Virus record (IMG/VR): IMGVR_UViG_3300034198_009790
Location: 1-23,108 of that record
Source: a virus
Direction: 5' to 3' (one strand)
Length of the DNA stretch: 23,108 bases
The notes under the pieces are model-generated. The model was not told the DNA's origin. It was given only the letters and a program-made list of their open reading frames with translations, and did no database searches. Positions 4,129 through 12,140 of this stretch are shown in pieces. How positions within the stretch are numbered: the stretch's first letter is position 1; the number at the start of each line of letters is the position of its first letter. The position numbers and the translations under genes are program-made.

Positions 4129-4503
4129 ATGGGCAGTTCCTCTCCTGTTGTTTACAATCCACCACCGCCGCCGCCTCCGTCCACGCAGTCGGTATCTACG
4201 CAGTCACTGCAAAACCAGACTGCACTGATGGAAGTTAGCGGTCAACAACAGCAAGCAAACATGCGGCTTGGTGCTGAGCTAGATCGTGCTAACAGTGAGT
4301 TCTTTACTGGTCAGAACATTCGCCAGACGCAAGCCACTGGTGCTGAAACTCGTGGCACACTGCAAACAAGTGGTGAGCAAGAACGTTTAGGTTACGGTGA
4401 ACAAGGTAAACAAACCAGGCTCACACAACAGCAAGCACAAGACTATGATAAGTACAAATCTCAACGTGATTACGAGTGGTCGCAAAAAGCGTACAAAGCG
4501 TAA
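4129..4503 (+). CDS. Polyproline, Gln-rich coiled-coil protein
   Basis: The product has 124 aa. Residues 11-18 form a near-pure proline run, followed by a Gln/Thr/Arg-rich stretch (about 25-124) that is probably one long polar helix or coiled coil. No hydrophobic segment and no known motif are visible. The start codon is immediately preceded by an overlapping ATG-TAA start-stop pair (4124-4129), and there is no clear Shine-Dalgarno. The 3' end overlaps the next gene by 28 nt in another frame. A structural linker or internal virion protein is possible; function is unknown. Confidence 0.65.
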   Translation: MGSSSPVVYNPPPPPPPSTQSVSTQSLQNQTALMEVSGQQQQANMRLGAELDRANSEFFTGQNIRQTQATGAETRGTLQTSGEQERLGYGEQGKQTRLTQQQAQDYDKYKSQRDYEWSQKAYKA

Positions 4504-4985
4504 CTTCCTGGCTAGAACGGTTAACTGAAAACGAAAAAGAATCTTATCTTGCTTTTTGTAAGAAAGTTTCTTCTCCAATCCAGATGTACCTTTATGCCCG
4601 TTTCATGGGGTTTAAAGGTTCAATTGTTGAATGTGATCAGTGGGCACAGCAACAATACAAAAAACCAAACTTTAACTTGGTTCTAGAAACTGAGATTGCT
4701 TCCATGCAGGTTGACATTGCCAAGCTGCGTGAAGGCATTGACATGGGAATGGTAAAGCAAGATATGGGAACTGCCCGTATTGCTATGCTGCAGAAAGAAC
4801 TGCGCGGTGCCATCAAACAATTGAATGATGAAAAACACTTAACAGATAAACAAGGTTTAATTCTTGCTGGTGCTGATCGTTCTTTAAGGGAGTTGCTTCT
4901 TATCTTTAGGGATGATCCAATTGAAGAATCTTTACAGGTTGCTTCCATGGGAGTGTGGACAAAAATCCTGGCAGAAGAATCCTAA
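4476..4985 (+). CDS. Putative small terminase subunit (helical protein just before the large terminase)
   Basis: The product has 169 aa, largely helical. Residues about 40-62 (ARFMGFKGSIVECDQWAQQQ region) could form a helix-turn-helix-like DNA-binding fold, followed by a charged coiled-coil middle (about 75-130). Small terminase subunits recognise phage DNA for packaging, often lie directly upstream of the large subunit and have a DNA-binding head plus oligomerising helices, so size, shape and place fit. I see no diagnostic motif. The GTG start at 4476 lies inside the previous gene without a ribosome site. The next in-frame ATG (about 4584) would cut off the N-terminus, so the true start is uncertain. 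Confidence 0.55.
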   Translation: MVAKSVQSVTSWLERLTENEKESYLAFCKKVSSPIQMYLYARFMGFKGSIVECDQWAQQQYKKPNFNLVLETEIASMQVDIAKLREGIDMGMVKQDMGTARIAMLQKELRGAIKQLNDEKHLTDKQGLILAGADRSLRELLLIFRDDPIEESLQVASMGVWTKILAEES

Positions 4986-5009
4986 GGTTTAGTAGCGTAA
5001 CCTAAAGGG

Positions 5010-6533
5010 ATGTCAGGAACTAGCATCTACTCTGTTTATCGGAGAACAGCACGAGCTGCTGCAAAGCAACACGTTGTCAAGAAAACATCAGACATTGATG
5101 TTGAAAGAGCGCGTACAGATTTTGCTTATTTTTGTGATGTTGTAGGTGACAAAAAACCTGCGAAGCATCACATGCAATGGCATCAGTATCTTTGCACTGG
5201 TGAAGATTCTGAATGTTTAATGAGTATTGGCGGTCCTAACGTTGACATCTTGGCTCCACGAGGATCAGCCAAAAGCACAGTTCTTGGTTTGTTTACTGCA
5301 TGGGCTATTGGTGTACATGCCCTACACAAAAAACCCTTAAAGATTCTTTACATCTCTTATACGGTTGATGTTGCTCGCCCCAAGAGTGCAGCTATCAAAC
5401 GAACCATTGAAGAAAGCAAACTCTATCGAGAGATCTTCCCAACGGTTAAAATTGCTAAAGGGATTAACTCTAACGAGTATTGGAGTATTGATTGGAAGTT
5501 TGCTGGCATTAAATCTACAGGTGAAGAAGAATTTACTGTATGTTGCGCAGGTCTTAAAGGTGCAGTGACTTCAAAACGTAGTCACCTTCTTATCCTCGAT
5601 GACGTGGTAAAGTCCGCCGACGACATTAAAAACAAAGATATTCGCTTAATGATGGAAGATAACTGGAACTCAGTTATTGTTCCAACCATGTTTGAAGGCG
5701 GCAGGGCAATCTGCCTTGGCACTAGATTCCGACATGATGATATTCACAGCACAACATTTACTCCAGCAAATAACTGGGTACAGCTTATCCAGTCTGCGGT
5801 TACTGTTGACAAGGAAGGCGATGAGGTTTCTTACTGGCCAGAAATGTGGTCACTGGAATACCTGCAAGATCGTCGGCGCCAGGCACCAATTAGTTTTAGT
5901 TTTCAGTACCAGAATCAAATTGTTCAAACCAGTGAGCTGTCCCTCTCCCCTGACTTGATTGTTAAAGGACAAATCCCTACAGAGTTTGATCGTATTGGGA
6001 TTGGCGTTGACCTTTCCGCTGGCGTCAGAGAACGTAATGACTACAGCGTATTTGTTTTGGGTGGGCGCGTAGGAGATAAGGTCTACATCATTGACTGCAA
6101 GCGCATCCGAATCATGGGCAACCTAGAAAAATTAGAAGCCCTAATGGAGATGCTCTACGAGTGGGGGATTGTTCATAAAGACGGAAATAACTACCATCCA
6201 ACTGGCACCAGTGTTGATGTTTGGTCAGAAGCTGTTGCCTATCAAGCATCTTTAGAAGCTGATTTTAAGCGAATTTGTTTAGGAGATCATGGACTCTATA
6301 ACATGATTTGGCACCCAATCAAAGGTTTCCGTGGCGACAAAGTTGCACGCTTTAGGGGCATTATGGGGTTGTTTGAACAACGCAAGATTAAGTTCAACAA
6401 GTACCGTAAGTTCCAAGCATTAACAGATGAAATCGTAAACTTTGGCGTCAGTTCTCACGACGATACGGTCGATGCCTTAGTATGGTTGTGCAATGGCCTA
6501 ATGGCCAGAGGAAAACTAGAGTTAGAGTATTGA
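5010..6533 (+). CDS. terL: Large terminase subunit (DNA-packaging ATPase/nuclease)
   Basis: The product has 507 aa, a usual length for the family. It drives ATP-dependent DNA translocation into the prohead and cuts the concatemer. The ATPase domain shows a Walker A loop at residues 82-90 (APRGSAKST), a Walker B at 193-198 (LLILDD) and a motif-III-like LGTRF at 236-240. The C-terminal RNase-H-like nuclease domain has the first acidic residue in IGIGVDLSAG (D334), a second candidate in VDVWSE (402-407) and the final pair in SSHDDTVDAL (D484, D485). All key residues are present, so it should be active. It begins 24 nt after the putative small subunit; AAAGGG just before the ATG is a weak, very close ribosome site. 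Confidence 0.95.
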   Translation: MSGTSIYSVYRRTARAAAKQHVVKKTSDIDVERARTDFAYFCDVVGDKKPAKHHMQWHQYLCTGEDSECLMSIGGPNVDILAPRGSAKSTVLGLFTAWAIGVHALHKKPLKILYISYTVDVARPKSAAIKRTIEESKLYREIFPTVKIAKGINSNEYWSIDWKFAGIKSTGEEEFTVCCAGLKGAVTSKRSHLLILDDVVKSADDIKNKDIRLMMEDNWNSVIVPTMFEGGRAICLGTRFRHDDIHSTTFTPANNWVQLIQSAVTVDKEGDEVSYWPEMWSLEYLQDRRRQAPISFSFQYQNQIVQTSELSLSPDLIVKGQIPTEFDRIGIGVDLSAGVRERNDYSVFVLGGRVGDKVYIIDCKRIRIMGNLEKLEALMEMLYEWGIVHKDGNNYHPTGTSVDVWSEAVAYQASLEADFKRICLGDHGLYNMIWHPIKGFRGDKVARFRGIMGLFEQRKIKFNKYRKFQALTDEIVNFGVSSHDDTVDALVWLCNGLMARGKLELEY

Positions 6534-6546
6534 CGATTTAGATCAT

Positions 6547-6552
6547 TACAAT
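6547..6552 (+). promoter_or_regulatory. -10-like box TACAAT very close to the AbrB-like start
   Basis: TACAAT lies in the terminase/AbrB-like gap, with only 6 nt before the ATG at 6559. If it is a promoter, transcription would begin at or next to the start codon and the message would be leaderless. No Shine-Dalgarno is present, which is consistent but not proof. Confidence 0.25.
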
Positions 6553-6558
6553 CTTGTT

Positions 6559-6732
6559 ATGCAGTATTTTGAAATTGAATTAGAGCAAGACAGCTACGGC
6601 TCTGCTATCTTTTCTCTTCCCGATGAACTCTGCCATGACATGGGATTAGTCCCAGGTGAACGATTTGATATTGAAGTGGAAGATGACTCCATTATTTTCA
6701 AACGGCTAACACCTGGCTATGAGGTTGAGTAA
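6559..6732 (+). CDS. AbrB/MazE-like swapped-hairpin protein (57 aa)
   Basis: The sequence starts MQYFEIELEQDSYGSAIF and continues with SLPDELCHDMGLVPGERFDI and a closing hydrophobic strand (DSIIFKRL). This matches the SpoVT-AbrB/MazE pattern: beta strand, Pro-Asp-Glu helix, Gly-Leu-x-x-Gly-Glu turn, then two strands. Such domains dimerise and bind DNA as transition-state regulators or antitoxins. No toxin gene is adjacent, so a regulator of late genes or an inhibitor of host regulation is more likely than an antitoxin. It sits alone between the terminase and the portal, 25 nt after the terminase stop. The family call rests on the short pattern only. Confidence 0.65.
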   Translation: MQYFEIELEQDSYGSAIFSLPDELCHDMGLVPGERFDIEVEDDSIIFKRLTPGYEVE

Positions 6733-6759
6733 GATAAAGACACGGCAAATTAAGAAGTA

Positions 6760-9036
6760 ATGAGCGAAACCAACACAATTCTTGATGGAATGTTGCGTGC
6801 TGCGGTAACCCGCGAGTCAACAGGCGCAGCAGATACCATGCTCATTAATGCCCACCTTTCCCAAATGAAAATGTTTGGGATTAGACAGGGCGTTGAATTT
6901 TATCCAGACCAAGATAACTTTGGTACTCAGCGTTTTGACTTTATTCAGCAAGTCATTAAGTTTAACAAATTAGACGCTCGATTAGATGCCATCTGGGATA
7001 GGTTTCTGGCATACGGTAAAGGTTTGTTCTATATTCGGCCAACAAAGAAAACGTATCGGTTGTACTGGTTTGACAAAGATGCGTACCGTACATACTACAC
7101 TCCCGAAGGTGACTTAGAAGAAGTAATTATTATTTATCCTTATAAAGTTAAATCCTCCCGTGGTTTTGGGGGAGCAGGACTTACTACGGATAAACGATAC
7201 ATGCGGTTACGGATCACCGCTACTGAGATTGAAGAATCGCACAGCGAACAGGAAATCAGCTTTGATATGCCTGAAAACTTTGCATCTTTAAACTCTAAAA
7301 CTGTAATCAATACTCTGGAATTTATTCCTTGTATTGAAGTTTTTAATAACCCAGATGCGTTTGGTACGGAAGGCAGCGGTGAATTTGAATGGCTGGCTAA
7401 TCAAGTTATTGCCCATGATGAAATGGTCAAAAACATCAGGGCAAACCTTTCATTCTTTGGTAATCCAACTCTGCTTTCTTCTCGTCCTAAACAGGACATC
7501 ATTGAAAAGCAAGACGGAGAAGTTGCCCAGCGTCCTAGTATTTCTAGCCAATCAGGATTCCAGTCAGAGTTCAGCCTTTCATCTTCTACTTACAAGCAAG
7601 ATAATGTAAGCCGCAACTCTCCCGGTTACATTGGTCGCCCTGGTTCTGGCATGAGAGTGCCCAGGGTTATTGCCAACCTGGAGCCAACAGATCGCGTTGG
7701 TTTCATTACGCCAATGGCCGTCAGTTCTGAACAAGCTCGTTACGTTGATCAGCTTCGTTCAGAAATCCGACTGGCATTAGGCGGTATTGATGACCTCAGC
7801 ATTACCAATGTAACCGCTACTGAAATCAAATCAGCTTACGGACGTGTTAGCGCCACAGCTAAAAAGAAGTGTTTGCAGCTTTACACCTACGGTTTGTGCA
7901 AGTGCTTTGAGCTGATGATCTTCCAGGAAGAACAAATCTTCCGCAAGAGCCTGGCACAAGCATCTGGATTAATGTATCCAAATCCTCCTGAAAATCCAGA
8001 CGATCCTGTTGAACAAGGTAAATATCAAAAAGCAAAAGTAAAATATGAGAAGGGCTTACAGAAGGCCATTGATAATGCCATTGAGACTAAAAAGATTCCT
8101 GATGGTGTCCTTGGATTAGCGCCAGATGGTGATAGAACCGTGTGCTGGCGGTGGATGGGACCAGTTTATGAAGATACAGCACAGGACAAACTTAACCAGT
8201 CAATCTTTACACGAAACCTACAAGAATTAGGTGTTGATAGCATTGAAGCACTGAAGTACCTTTTCCCTTCAAAAACAGATGATGAGATTGCAGGAATGCT
8301 ATCTGGTTATCCGTTTAGAATGGTAGGAGAGGTACAAAGGGCGTACTCATCGTTTATTGATTTAGTCAATTTACAAATGAGGACTCCACACCCGCAGCAA
8401 CCAAATCTCCCGATGGCTGCGGACCCTAGATTAAATCTCACCCCGTTCCTTTACAGAACTTTAGAAAGTCTTCAAAAAGAGGTAACCTATGCAGGCAGAT
8501 ACCGCAGCGCCGATCCAATCGGCACCCCAGTCTTACCAGACCCAGCCGACCAGTTACGCGGCGCCGGTAGCTCAGCAGACGGCGGCTCAGGCTTCTTCAG
8601 TGGCTACAACCCCGCAATGGGTGGCGCCCTACCAAGCAGCGGTGGCCCCAGCCCCGCAAATGCAGGCCCAGATGGGGGTCCAGCAACCCCAATTCAACCC
8701 TACTCAGTCGTACCCCCAGGCTTACCAGCCGTCGGCTCCACAAGCAGCGGAGAACCCTTACAAGGAAGCGTTCAACCGGGTGGTGGGACTCCTGAGTTCG
8801 CCGGTCCAATTCCCGTTCCAGGGTCAACAATCACAAGCGACCGAACAACTCGCCCCGGCCAATTACAATTCCCAGGCGTATTCCCAGTACAGCAACAACA
8901 GCGTGTATCCGGGTCAGCAGACCTTTACGCCTGGAACCAACAGCAACCAGGGTTACTCCAACAGCTCTTCCCCAACTTCACTGGAAATCAGCAGGGAGCA
9001 GCTCCTGGCAAACGGGGTAAGCCCAGCAAGTCTTGA
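6760..9036 (+). CDS. Portal protein with a long disordered C-terminal tail overprinting the next gene
   Basis: The product has 758 aa. Position directly after the terminase and before a scaffold-like and a capsid gene, the size, and an internal LGGIDDL...NVTATEIK segment (TATEI at 352-356) followed by a long helical region fit a portal, the dodecameric ring at the capsid vertex through which DNA passes. Residues 1-576 are an ordinary mixed sequence. Residues 577-758 become Gly/Pro/Ser-rich, lack secondary-structure character and end basic (GKRGKPSKS). That tail is encoded where a second gene (start 8489) runs in the +1 frame, and no earlier stop exists in the portal frame. A weak AGAAG precedes the ATG. 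I recognise no closer named family. Confidence 0.8.
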   Translation: MSETNTILDGMLRAAVTRESTGAADTMLINAHLSQMKMFGIRQGVEFYPDQDNFGTQRFDFIQQVIKFNKLDARLDAIWDRFLAYGKGLFYIRPTKKTYRLYWFDKDAYRTYYTPEGDLEEVIIIYPYKVKSSRGFGGAGLTTDKRYMRLRITATEIEESHSEQEISFDMPENFASLNSKTVINTLEFIPCIEVFNNPDAFGTEGSGEFEWLANQVIAHDEMVKNIRANLSFFGNPTLLSSRPKQDIIEKQDGEVAQRPSISSQSGFQSEFSLSSSTYKQDNVSRNSPGYIGRPGSGMRVPRVIANLEPTDRVGFITPMAVSSEQARYVDQLRSEIRLALGGIDDLSITNVTATEIKSAYGRVSATAKKKCLQLYTYGLCKCFELMIFQEEQIFRKSLAQASGLMYPNPPENPDDPVEQGKYQKAKVKYEKGLQKAIDNAIETKKIPDGVLGLAPDGDRTVCWRWMGPVYEDTAQDKLNQSIFTRNLQELGVDSIEALKYLFPSKTDDEIAGMLSGYPFRMVGEVQRAYSSFIDLVNLQMRTPHPQQPNLPMAADPRLNLTPFLYRTLESLQKEVTYAGRYRSADPIGTPVLPDPADQLRGAGSSADGGSGFFSGYNPAMGGALPSSGGPSPANAGPDGGPATPIQPYSVVPPGLPAVGSTSSGEPLQGSVQPGGGTPEFAGPIPVPGSTITSDRTTRPGQLQFPGVFPVQQQQRVSGSADLYAWNQQQPGLLQQLFPNFTGNQQGAAPGKRGKPSKS
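8478..8488 (+). promoter_or_regulatory. Strong ribosome binding site inside the portal gene
   Basis: AGAGGT lies 5-6 nt before ATG 8489 and is one of the best Shine-Dalgarno sequences in the window. It lies within the portal reading frame and decides that the scaffold-like gene starts here, 548 nt before the portal stop. Confidence 0.75.
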
Positions 9037-9514
9037 AGTTATTGATTATTTTGGTGCTGATGCTGCCAACGTTCTCAATAACTACGCTTGCGAACTTGAA
9101 AATCATCTGATTGTTACCAACAACCAGTTGATTGAGGCTGTTGGTCTGCTTCAAGAACTTGGCAATGAGCATCGTGCCTACGAAGCTATTCTGACTGATC
9201 CAGACATCCTTGCTGATTACACCTGTCAGTTCTTCGGTGAAAACGGTCCTTATCCGATTCCCGATGAAGAAGCTGGGTTTATTCCTCAAGGTGTGAACAC
9301 TGGTTATCGTTCACTGGCACGTCCAGAGCAACAGCAGTTTGAGCGTCCTCAAATGCCAGTGCCTCCGCAACCCCAAGCTCAAGGTAATCCTGTTGCCTTC
9401 TGGGATAGCTTTGGTGCTCTTGCTGAGCGTGATCCTGCTAATGCCTGGCGCTATCTTAACCAAGCTTCTAGCAACCCTGATGTGTTCCGCCAGAAACTTC
9501 TGGTTATGGAATGA
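8489..9514 (+). CDS. Putative scaffolding/capsid-assembly protein
   Basis: The product has 341 aa. Residues 1-165 are Gln/Pro/Ala/Tyr-rich and low in complexity, apart from a short helical patch near 88-103. Residues 165-341 look folded, Glu/Leu/Asp-rich and acidic, with helical stretches such as LEVIDYFGADAANVLNNYA. A gene between portal and major capsid protein, with a disordered half and an acidic helical half, is the usual place and build of a phage scaffold that shapes the procapsid; this is inference, not a family match. The start has a strong ribosome site. The first 548 nt overlap the portal tail. The GC content falls from 67% (8521-8580) to 40% (9061-9120) after the overlap. A terminator follows. 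Confidence 0.7.
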   Translation: MQADTAAPIQSAPQSYQTQPTSYAAPVAQQTAAQASSVATTPQWVAPYQAAVAPAPQMQAQMGVQQPQFNPTQSYPQAYQPSAPQAAENPYKEAFNRVVGLLSSPVQFPFQGQQSQATEQLAPANYNSQAYSQYSNNSVYPGQQTFTPGTNSNQGYSNSSSPTSLEISREQLLANGVSPASLEVIDYFGADAANVLNNYACELENHLIVTNNQLIEAVGLLQELGNEHRAYEAILTDPDILADYTCQFFGENGPYPIPDEEAGFIPQGVNTGYRSLARPEQQQFERPQMPVPPQPQAQGNPVAFWDSFGALAERDPANAWRYLNQASSNPDVFRQKLLVME

Positions 9515-11000: not shown

Positions 11001-12140
11001 ATGTTCATTGATAATGATTTCCCGAAGCTGTTGGGTGCGGAACTGTACCGCCCCCATCCAGCTTATATCGTGGAAATGGCTGCCGAGCCGGTGGTCGTCC
11101 ACGACTTCACCAAACAACCTGGTCAAACCGTTCAGTTAGACCGCTATCGGTTCTGGGGCAACCCTGGCACCAAGGCCAGCCGCGAGCGGACTCAAGACCA
11201 AACAATCGGTACTGCTAACAGCCGTTCGATTGTTAAGGACAAAGTGCTTGTGTCTCTTCGTGAGTACACCGGCCCTGCTGACCCGAACAACTCCAACGCT
11301 CCCAGCACTTTCAAGATTGCTCGGGAAACGCTGATGACCGCTCAGCGTCTGCTGCTGGACACGGGGAACCTTAACATGTTCCATCAGTCCATCGGTTCGC
11401 TGACCCTGCTTGATGACTACCGCCGCTGGCGTGACCGTGTGCTGCTCGATGAGCTGTACAAGTCCTTCTCCCGTGGCCAAGCTTCTGATACGCAAGGCGG
11501 TTACTACTACCCCAACAACCACACCAATACCAGCGGCACGGTTAGCACCTATACCGCCACTGAGTATGCCTCTGAGCGTTACAAGTTTAACGTGAAGAGC
11601 GACCTTCTGGAAGTTGTCAAAGGTCTGCGTAAGCGTAACGTTCCCGTCTTCCAAGATGGTTACTACCGTTGTATCGCTGATCCCTCCTTCATGAAGGATC
11701 TGCGTGCTGACCAAGGCTTCCGTGAAGTTGCTCGTTACCCTGGCATGGGTGCTGGCAACCCGATGATGGGCGCTATGGGTCCAAACCAAGCCATCTACGG
11801 TGGTGGTCAGTACGGCCAAGCTCAGTTTGTGGGCGGCGAGCCCATCATGCCCTCTGGCTTTGTGTTTGAAGGCGTGCGTTTCTTCGAGTCAACCAACTTT
11901 ACCAATCTCACCGCTACTGTTGACATTGGTGATGGTGGCGGTTCTATCAGCCATACAACTCCTCCTGGTCTGTTCTTCGGTCCTCAGGCTGTTGGTATTG
12001 GTATCGGTGGTCCTAACGCTCAAGTTCTCATTAACAACAACGACGACTTCAGCCGCTTTATCATTCTGATCTGGCAGCTGTACGCTGGTTTTGCGAACCT
12101 GAACAAGGACTTCTGCACCGTTGCATTCACCATTGTTTGA
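11001..12140 (+). CDS. Major capsid protein, N4-gp56/HK97-fold-like
   Basis: The product has 379 aa. The N-terminal region (AEPVVVHDFTKQPGQTV then a basic-aromatic RYRFW, about residues 29-52) and the following VLVSLREYTGP (about 83-93) resemble the N4-gp56-type capsid family with its HK97 fold. A long helix-rich part (about 100-155) follows, then a Gly/Met-rich stretch (YPGMGAGNPMMGAMG, about 248-262) and a hydrophobic C-terminus. Codons favour C- and G-ending forms (60% GC in 11041-11100 against about 40% in neighbours), which fits very high expression. No ribosome site lies next to the ATG; a leader ORF ends five bases upstream. The gene is followed by a second gene with similar codons and a strong ribosome site. 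Confidence 0.8.
   Translation: MFIDNDFPKLLGAELYRPHPAYIVEMAAEPVVVHDFTKQPGQTVQLDRYRFWGNPGTKASRERTQDQTIGTANSRSIVKDKVLVSLREYTGPADPNNSNAPSTFKIARETLMTAQRLLLDTGNLNMFHQSIGSLTLLDDYRRWRDRVLLDELYKSFSRGQASDTQGGYYYPNNHTNTSGTVSTYTATEYASERYKFNVKSDLLEVVKGLRKRNVPVFQDGYYRCIADPSFMKDLRADQGFREVARYPGMGAGNPMMGAMGPNQAIYGGGQYGQAQFVGGEPIMPSGFVFEGVRFFESTNFTNLTATVDIGDGGGSISHTTPPGLFFGPQAVGIGIGGPNAQVLINNNDDFSRFIILIWQLYAGFANLNKDFCTVAFTIV

Follow-up and report, generated by a model that had tools for sequence, protein, structure and literature searches.

Long out-of-frame gene overlaps are regarded as a trait of small viruses. The window analysed here, all 23,108 bases of an IMG/VR virus record, carries genes for a terminase, a portal protein, a scaffold-like protein and a major capsid protein in that order, and the scaffold-like gene begins, in the +1 frame, well inside the portal gene. 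We asked whether both frames of the shared stretch encode protein or whether one of them is open incidentally. The best explanation as a whole, to which we assign a probability of roughly 0.88, is that the shared stretch truly codes twice, for the tail of the portal and for the N-terminus of a probable scaffold, and that the sampled S-EIV1-like phages inherited it from their common ancestor.

Two open frames between the portal and scaffold-like genes

A preliminary description of the locus had reported a 548-nt overlap with both frames open, had placed the last 182 portal residues within it and had noted a ribosome site ahead of the internal start. The coordinates proved exact: portal codons 577-758 lie in the overlap, and the motif AAAGAGG precedes the ATG by 6 nt (Table 1). 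The cited GC contents were likewise recovered (66.7% in 8521-8580 and 40.0% in 9061-9120), and both products have the low-complexity composition that had been claimed for them in this stretch. Other likely gene pairs in the window never overlap one another by more than about 30 nt.

Table 1. Features of the portal/scaffold-like locus (positions in the window).
Feature	Position	Strand	Remarks
Terminase large subunit (context)	5010..6533	+	PF17289 E 3.4e-9; phrog_38 E 1.8e-78
Portal protein gene	6760..9036	+	758 aa; residues 1-576 body, 577-758 tail inside the overlap
Shine-Dalgarno-like AAAGAGG of the internal start	8476..8482	+	inside portal codons; 6 nt spacing to ATG at 8489
Scaffold-like protein gene	8489..9514	+	341 aa; ATG start within the portal gene
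Portal/scaffold-like overlap	8489..9036	+	548 nt including portal stop; +1 frame; portal tail and scaffold-like N-terminal half
Scaffold-frame conserved block PYKEAFNRVVGLLSSPVQFPFQGQ	8756..8827	+	scaffold residues 90-113; contains predicted helix 90-102; near-invariant columns
Portal-frame conserved C-terminal motif GSADLYAWNQQQPGLLQQLFPN	8911..8976	+	portal residues 718-739
Scaffold-like long predicted helices	8993..9244	+	residues 169-252; begin at about the portal end; block-mean pLDDT mostly 71-97
Scaffold-like C-terminal helical domain	9389..9508	+	residues 301-340, ...FWxSF..RDPxNAWR..N.A...KLxVME; AlphaFold2 and conserved columns
Major capsid protein (context)	11001..12140	+	phrog_1357 'major head protein' E 2.6e-18; 68% identity to an unannotated S-EIV1 frame

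Both genes had been described as core morphogenesis genes. For the upstream gene this designation stands, as the predicted structure of its product is well supported as that of a portal. When its AlphaFold2 model (low-confidence, mean pLDDT 45) was compared with the PDB using Foldseek, the 45 best matches were all portals or portal-complex chains, among them those of 80alpha, SaPI1 and T7 (best E 2.5e-7). At the level of sequence, the protein matches phrog_20475 'virion structural protein' (E 1e-203), and 18 of 29 relatives match phrog_64 'portal protein' (best E 1.5e-6). The last predicted helix of the portal body ends at residue 582, close to the start of the overlap at residue 577, and the tail that follows is modelled as disordered save for two short low-confidence helices (720-728 and 732-736).

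The designation of the downstream gene as a scaffold rests on its position and predicted architecture; searches of Pfam, PHROG, PDB sequences and BFVD returned no match, and a fold search gave nothing usable. We file the protein as scaffold-like rather than as a member of a scaffold family because it has no family match, scaffolds often being too diverged to match. Its gene lies between those for the portal and the major capsid protein, as it does in S-EIV1. AlphaFold2, run on inputs from which the S-EIV1 row was left out, predicts an elongated helical protein with disordered regions: disorder to about residue 168 apart from a helix at 90-102, long helices at 179-236 and 238-252, and a helical domain at the C-terminus. 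The folded part had been said to begin near the portal stop, and the model agrees, with predicted helices starting from residues 169-179 and the stop falling at residue 182. A capsid scaffold is thus the most likely identity on position and predicted architecture. Dual coding might also be real with the downstream protein serving as an internal core, head-completion or pilot-type protein; the lack of any family or fold match is compatible with this alternative, but the location between portal and capsid genes and a predicted order of disordered region, long helix and small C-terminal helical domain, as in scaffolds, make it the less likely identity, if one still to be reckoned with.

Conservation of the overlap among S-EIV1-like phages

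To place the locus among its relatives, loci were gathered from IMG/VR by homology, including with S-EIV1 as query, and with degenerate patterns that avoided the codons of the first set; two scans yielded 558 and at least 598 confirmed stretches, in sets that possibly overlap. Further patterns excluded the usual codons at the Shine-Dalgarno site in order to seek relatives without the overlap. The phages form a large group, mostly uncultured and related to the cyanobacterial virus S-EIV1. The overlap (about 480-640 nt) is retained in 437 of the 438 IMG/VR and isolate loci that carry both genes; its length is 497-620 nt between the 5th and 95th percentiles and at most 641 nt, and wherever it is kept its phase is +1. 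At eight loci the start chosen initially gave an overlap of 110 nt, and all eight share an upstream offset of 438 nt; in the two inspected individually (L364 and L402), the upstream ATG gives 548 nt. A sequencing indel or a chimera can be ruled out as the source of the overlap because 437 of the 438 loci share the arrangement.

The start of the scaffold-like gene is equally stable. Its codon is ATG in all 438 loci, and a Shine-Dalgarno-like motif (AAGGAG, AGAGG or AAGGA) precedes it in 426. The purine run at this site is kept although the portal codons there vary between lineages, and the lineages picked for other codons at the site still carry the overlap. The third frame of the overlap, by comparison, contains at least two stops in each of 147 relatives (mean 6).

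Portal homologues with enough downstream sequence included no relative without the overlap except L238. In this locus a single in-frame TGA, at around 4284-4286, replaces an otherwise invariant portal arginine just before the scaffold start, and the portal frame beyond it is open and conserved; the stop is most likely an error or the mark of a defective copy. No relative was found to combine a portal stop near the position equivalent to 8489 with an unconserved frame beyond it.

The loci fall into two clades whose portal bodies are about 59% identical to each other (minimum 55%), and the overlap is older than the split between them because both carry it. Two clade A portal homologues, 82-83% identical (QQUU01000043.1 and QQUU01000104.1), are filed under a Bacteroidetes metagenome-assembled genome; these are possibly binned phage contigs and not evidence of host.

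The only matching isolate is Synechococcus phage S-EIV1 (KJ410740; 79,178 bp), to which the window is 63.9% identical in the terminase, 51.5% in the portal and 68% in the capsid protein, with the same gene order, which places it among the S-EIV1-like phages. There, the portal gene AHV82224 (57537-59840) overlaps a 325-aa ORF (59287-60264) by 554 nt in the +1 frame, with the ATG and Shine-Dalgarno sequence in the same position and the same two motifs as in the window. The GenBank record differs in annotating just 59863-60264 of the downstream ORF (AHV82225, about 134 aa), and the overlap is invisible in it because that gene is annotated truncated.

Selection in the two frames

Selection was measured on close, disjoint and phylogenetically independent pairs of genomes (33 pairs in clade A, 51 in clade B). 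For each site, possible and observed changes were sorted, frame by frame, into silent and replacing, and a two-frame Poisson model with terms for transitions and base composition was fitted. In the overlap, omega is 0.59 [0.50-0.66] for the portal frame and 0.28 [0.25-0.32] for the scaffold frame in clade A, and 0.50 [0.43-0.57] and 0.28 [0.25-0.30], respectively, in clade B. Control frames gave 0.89-0.96 (portal body, +1 frame) and 1.43-1.63 (part of the scaffold gene outside the overlap, portal-phase frame). An earlier run on fewer genomes agrees, with 0.84 [0.76-0.94] for the portal-body control; that this control is slightly below 1 reflects a small bias in the model, which the effect far exceeds. 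Across the overlap, purifying selection acts on both frames in two diverged clades. The DNA of the overlap also diverges less (0.17-0.18) than that of the portal body (0.22-0.23), despite the low complexity of both products in this stretch.

Sliding windows show that constraint alternates between the frames along the overlap. The scaffold frame is most constrained over NP[YW]..AFN[KR]VV.LLS.PVQ.PFQGQ (8729-8848; omega 0.19, clade B 0.16), where portal constraint is weaker (0.5-0.8), and M1, S11, P90, A94, F95, N96 and P105 are among its near-invariant residues within the overlap. The portal peak follows directly, over ADL...QPG[LI]L.QLFPN (8849-8968; omega 0.19 in clade A and 0.30 in clade B). 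Here the columns G718, D721, P730, L736, F737 and P738 are invariant; L/I-x-x-LFPN is present in 382 of 414 complete portal tails, most of the others being one-residue variants, and where the motif is found the portal stop lies 5-68 residues past it and never before it. The proximal part of the portal tail (about 8549-8788) has, in clade A, a portal omega near 1, which suggests a stretch that is held open while its sequence is little selected. Both clades show the alternation, which fits a pair of disordered tails with one short functional peptide each.

These measurements bear on three explanations in which the overlap is not dual-coding. In the first, the scaffold-like gene alone is real there: the portal would functionally end near 8489, and its frame would be open by chance, the scaffold tail having few K, D, E and R codons. 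The Q/P/A/S-rich composition of that tail does make portal-phase stops scarce, and the omega near 1 over part of the clade A tail points the same way. However, when the scaffold gene of the studied locus was shuffled synonymously (2000 shuffles), a mean of 8.1 portal-frame stops arose and no shuffle left the frame open (P < 0.0005); across 16 genomes, 3.5-8.1 stops were expected and P ranged from <0.0005 to 0.0165. Chance alone would thus not keep the portal frame open. Together with a portal omega of 0.50-0.59 across the overlap, falling to 0.19-0.30 at the motif where the control gives 1.4-1.6, and a motif conserved between clades of 59% identity, this makes a chance-open portal frame quite improbable. 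The reverse shuffle, of the scaffold frame's openness given the portal amino acids, is a weaker test (P = 0.26 at the studied locus; at most 0.0555 in 10 of 16 genomes).

More improbable again is that the portal alone uses the overlap and the downstream protein, of about 134 aa, begins past the portal stop, the frame upstream being incidental. This is how AHV82225 is annotated in the GenBank record of S-EIV1; against it stand a scaffold-frame omega of 0.25-0.29 in the overlap, a stronger constraint than that on the portal, the universal ATG with its nearly universal Shine-Dalgarno-like motif, and the near-invariant residues inside the overlap. Finally, an RNA or DNA structure, such as a regulatory element or packaging signal, might account for the low nucleotide divergence of the overlap, but we give this hardly any credence, since the suppression tracks codon class in clade A (changes silent in the portal and altering the scaffold are 2.4 times as frequent as those altering both, versus 0.83 for the same classes downstream) and RNA structure is not expected to follow two frames.

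Possible function, origin and precedents

Under the dual-coding explanation, both proteins would be made from the overlap, as read from the sequence. The portal frame would add a flexible tail to the portal C-terminus, ending in the conserved ADL...QPGxLxQLFPN peptide, and the +1 frame would supply the mostly disordered N-terminal half of a likely capsid scaffold, with one conserved helical segment. Ribosomes would complete the portal in its own frame to its own stop, while the scaffold would be initiated independently at the internal ATG, from a conserved Shine-Dalgarno sequence that sits in portal codons. Such double use may be tolerated because each disordered tail fully preserves just one short motif, and the stretches that hold the two motifs adjoin but mostly do not coincide.

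The portal tail peptide may dock to an internal partner, the scaffold or the core, during procapsid assembly. One account of P22 describes the scaffolding protein as driving portal incorporation (PMC13386823), which makes an internal-facing portal tail peptide that binds scaffold or core a reasonable guess. A more specific proposal has the portal tail peptide bind the scaffold tail, both made from one stretch of mRNA, with the overlap thereby ensuring that a portal-scaffold nucleation complex is co-produced locally and co-evolves. This seems doubtful to us; if it were true, the overlap would persist as a link between proteins that have to come together.

The whole portal body is encoded ahead of the scaffold start, and the helical part of the scaffold begins at about the portal stop. 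This layout would fit the loss of a portal stop that once separated two adjacent genes, with the portal then running on into the disordered N-terminus of the scaffold; it would also fit an upstream shift of the scaffold start. A tblastn search for a deeper outgroup with the portal and the capsid protein against 50,697 phage records matched only S-EIV1; three further portal matches, at E 9-10, were dismissed as chance. Either frame may be the older, the search having yielded no outgroup that lacks the overlap. Codon usage leans slightly towards the portal frame, which in every one of 125 non-redundant genomes is closer than the scaffold frame to the usage of the portal body; because codon-position geometry confounds this comparison, the portal frame is not called older.

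Partial precedents exist among tailed phages. In lambda, the start of the Nu3 scaffold lies inside the upstream head gene C, as the scaffold start does here within a head gene; Nu3 is in frame with C, hence without dual coding, whereas the overlap of the S-EIV1-like phages is out of frame and joins a portal to a probable scaffold. Rz1 is an out-of-frame gene embedded in Rz and so resembles the present case in phase, but both are short lysis genes.

There is a likeness in kind to the same-strand overlaps of small phages of the phiX174 type, in which two unrelated proteins are read in two frames by internal initiation with its own ribosome site (reviewed in PMC8227390). The phiX174 genome is about 5 kb, however, compared with about 80 kb in S-EIV1-like phages, and the overlap described here differs in lying between head genes in a tailed phage with double-stranded DNA. 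Such overlaps had been called rare in the preliminary description, in agreement with a survey covering 12,609 virus reference genomes, in which the median length of +1 overlaps is 14 nt (IQR 8-26), overlaps are shorter in longer genomes, and those of tailed double-stranded DNA phages are usually 1 or 4 nt (PMC8903798). Against that median the portal/scaffold overlap is an outlier. A search of open-access full texts, which did not cover the S-EIV1 genome paper, found no report of overlapping portal and scaffold genes. Dual coding itself is already known; what is new, as far as we have checked, is so long an overlap joining a portal gene to that of a probable scaffold and fixed throughout a large group of tailed phages. 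With about 500-640 nt fixed in hundreds of phages of a group with genomes of about 80 kb, where compression is of no obvious need, it offers a natural test of why overlaps persist. It also illustrates, as in the S-EIV1 record, that annotation rules hide the true N-termini of head proteins.

Some further observations concern the neighbouring genes. The S-EIV1 terminase gene (846 aa; 4520-7060 of locus L081, taken from KJ410740.1) encodes an intein (PF14890, residues 202-526, E 1.4e-11) that is absent from the 507-aa terminase of the studied locus. The S-EIV1 record is also without a proper major capsid protein gene at 60784-61989 (11224-12429 of L081); the true capsid frame, 60859-61989, lies under AHV82227, a CDS annotated on the reverse strand, and AHV82228, a truncated CDS on the forward strand. 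In the window, an antisense ORF of 227 aa (11136-11819, minus strand) lies within the capsid protein gene, and the S-EIV1 capsid gene is likewise covered by a long antisense ORF; the antisense frame is probably a by-product of codon usage.
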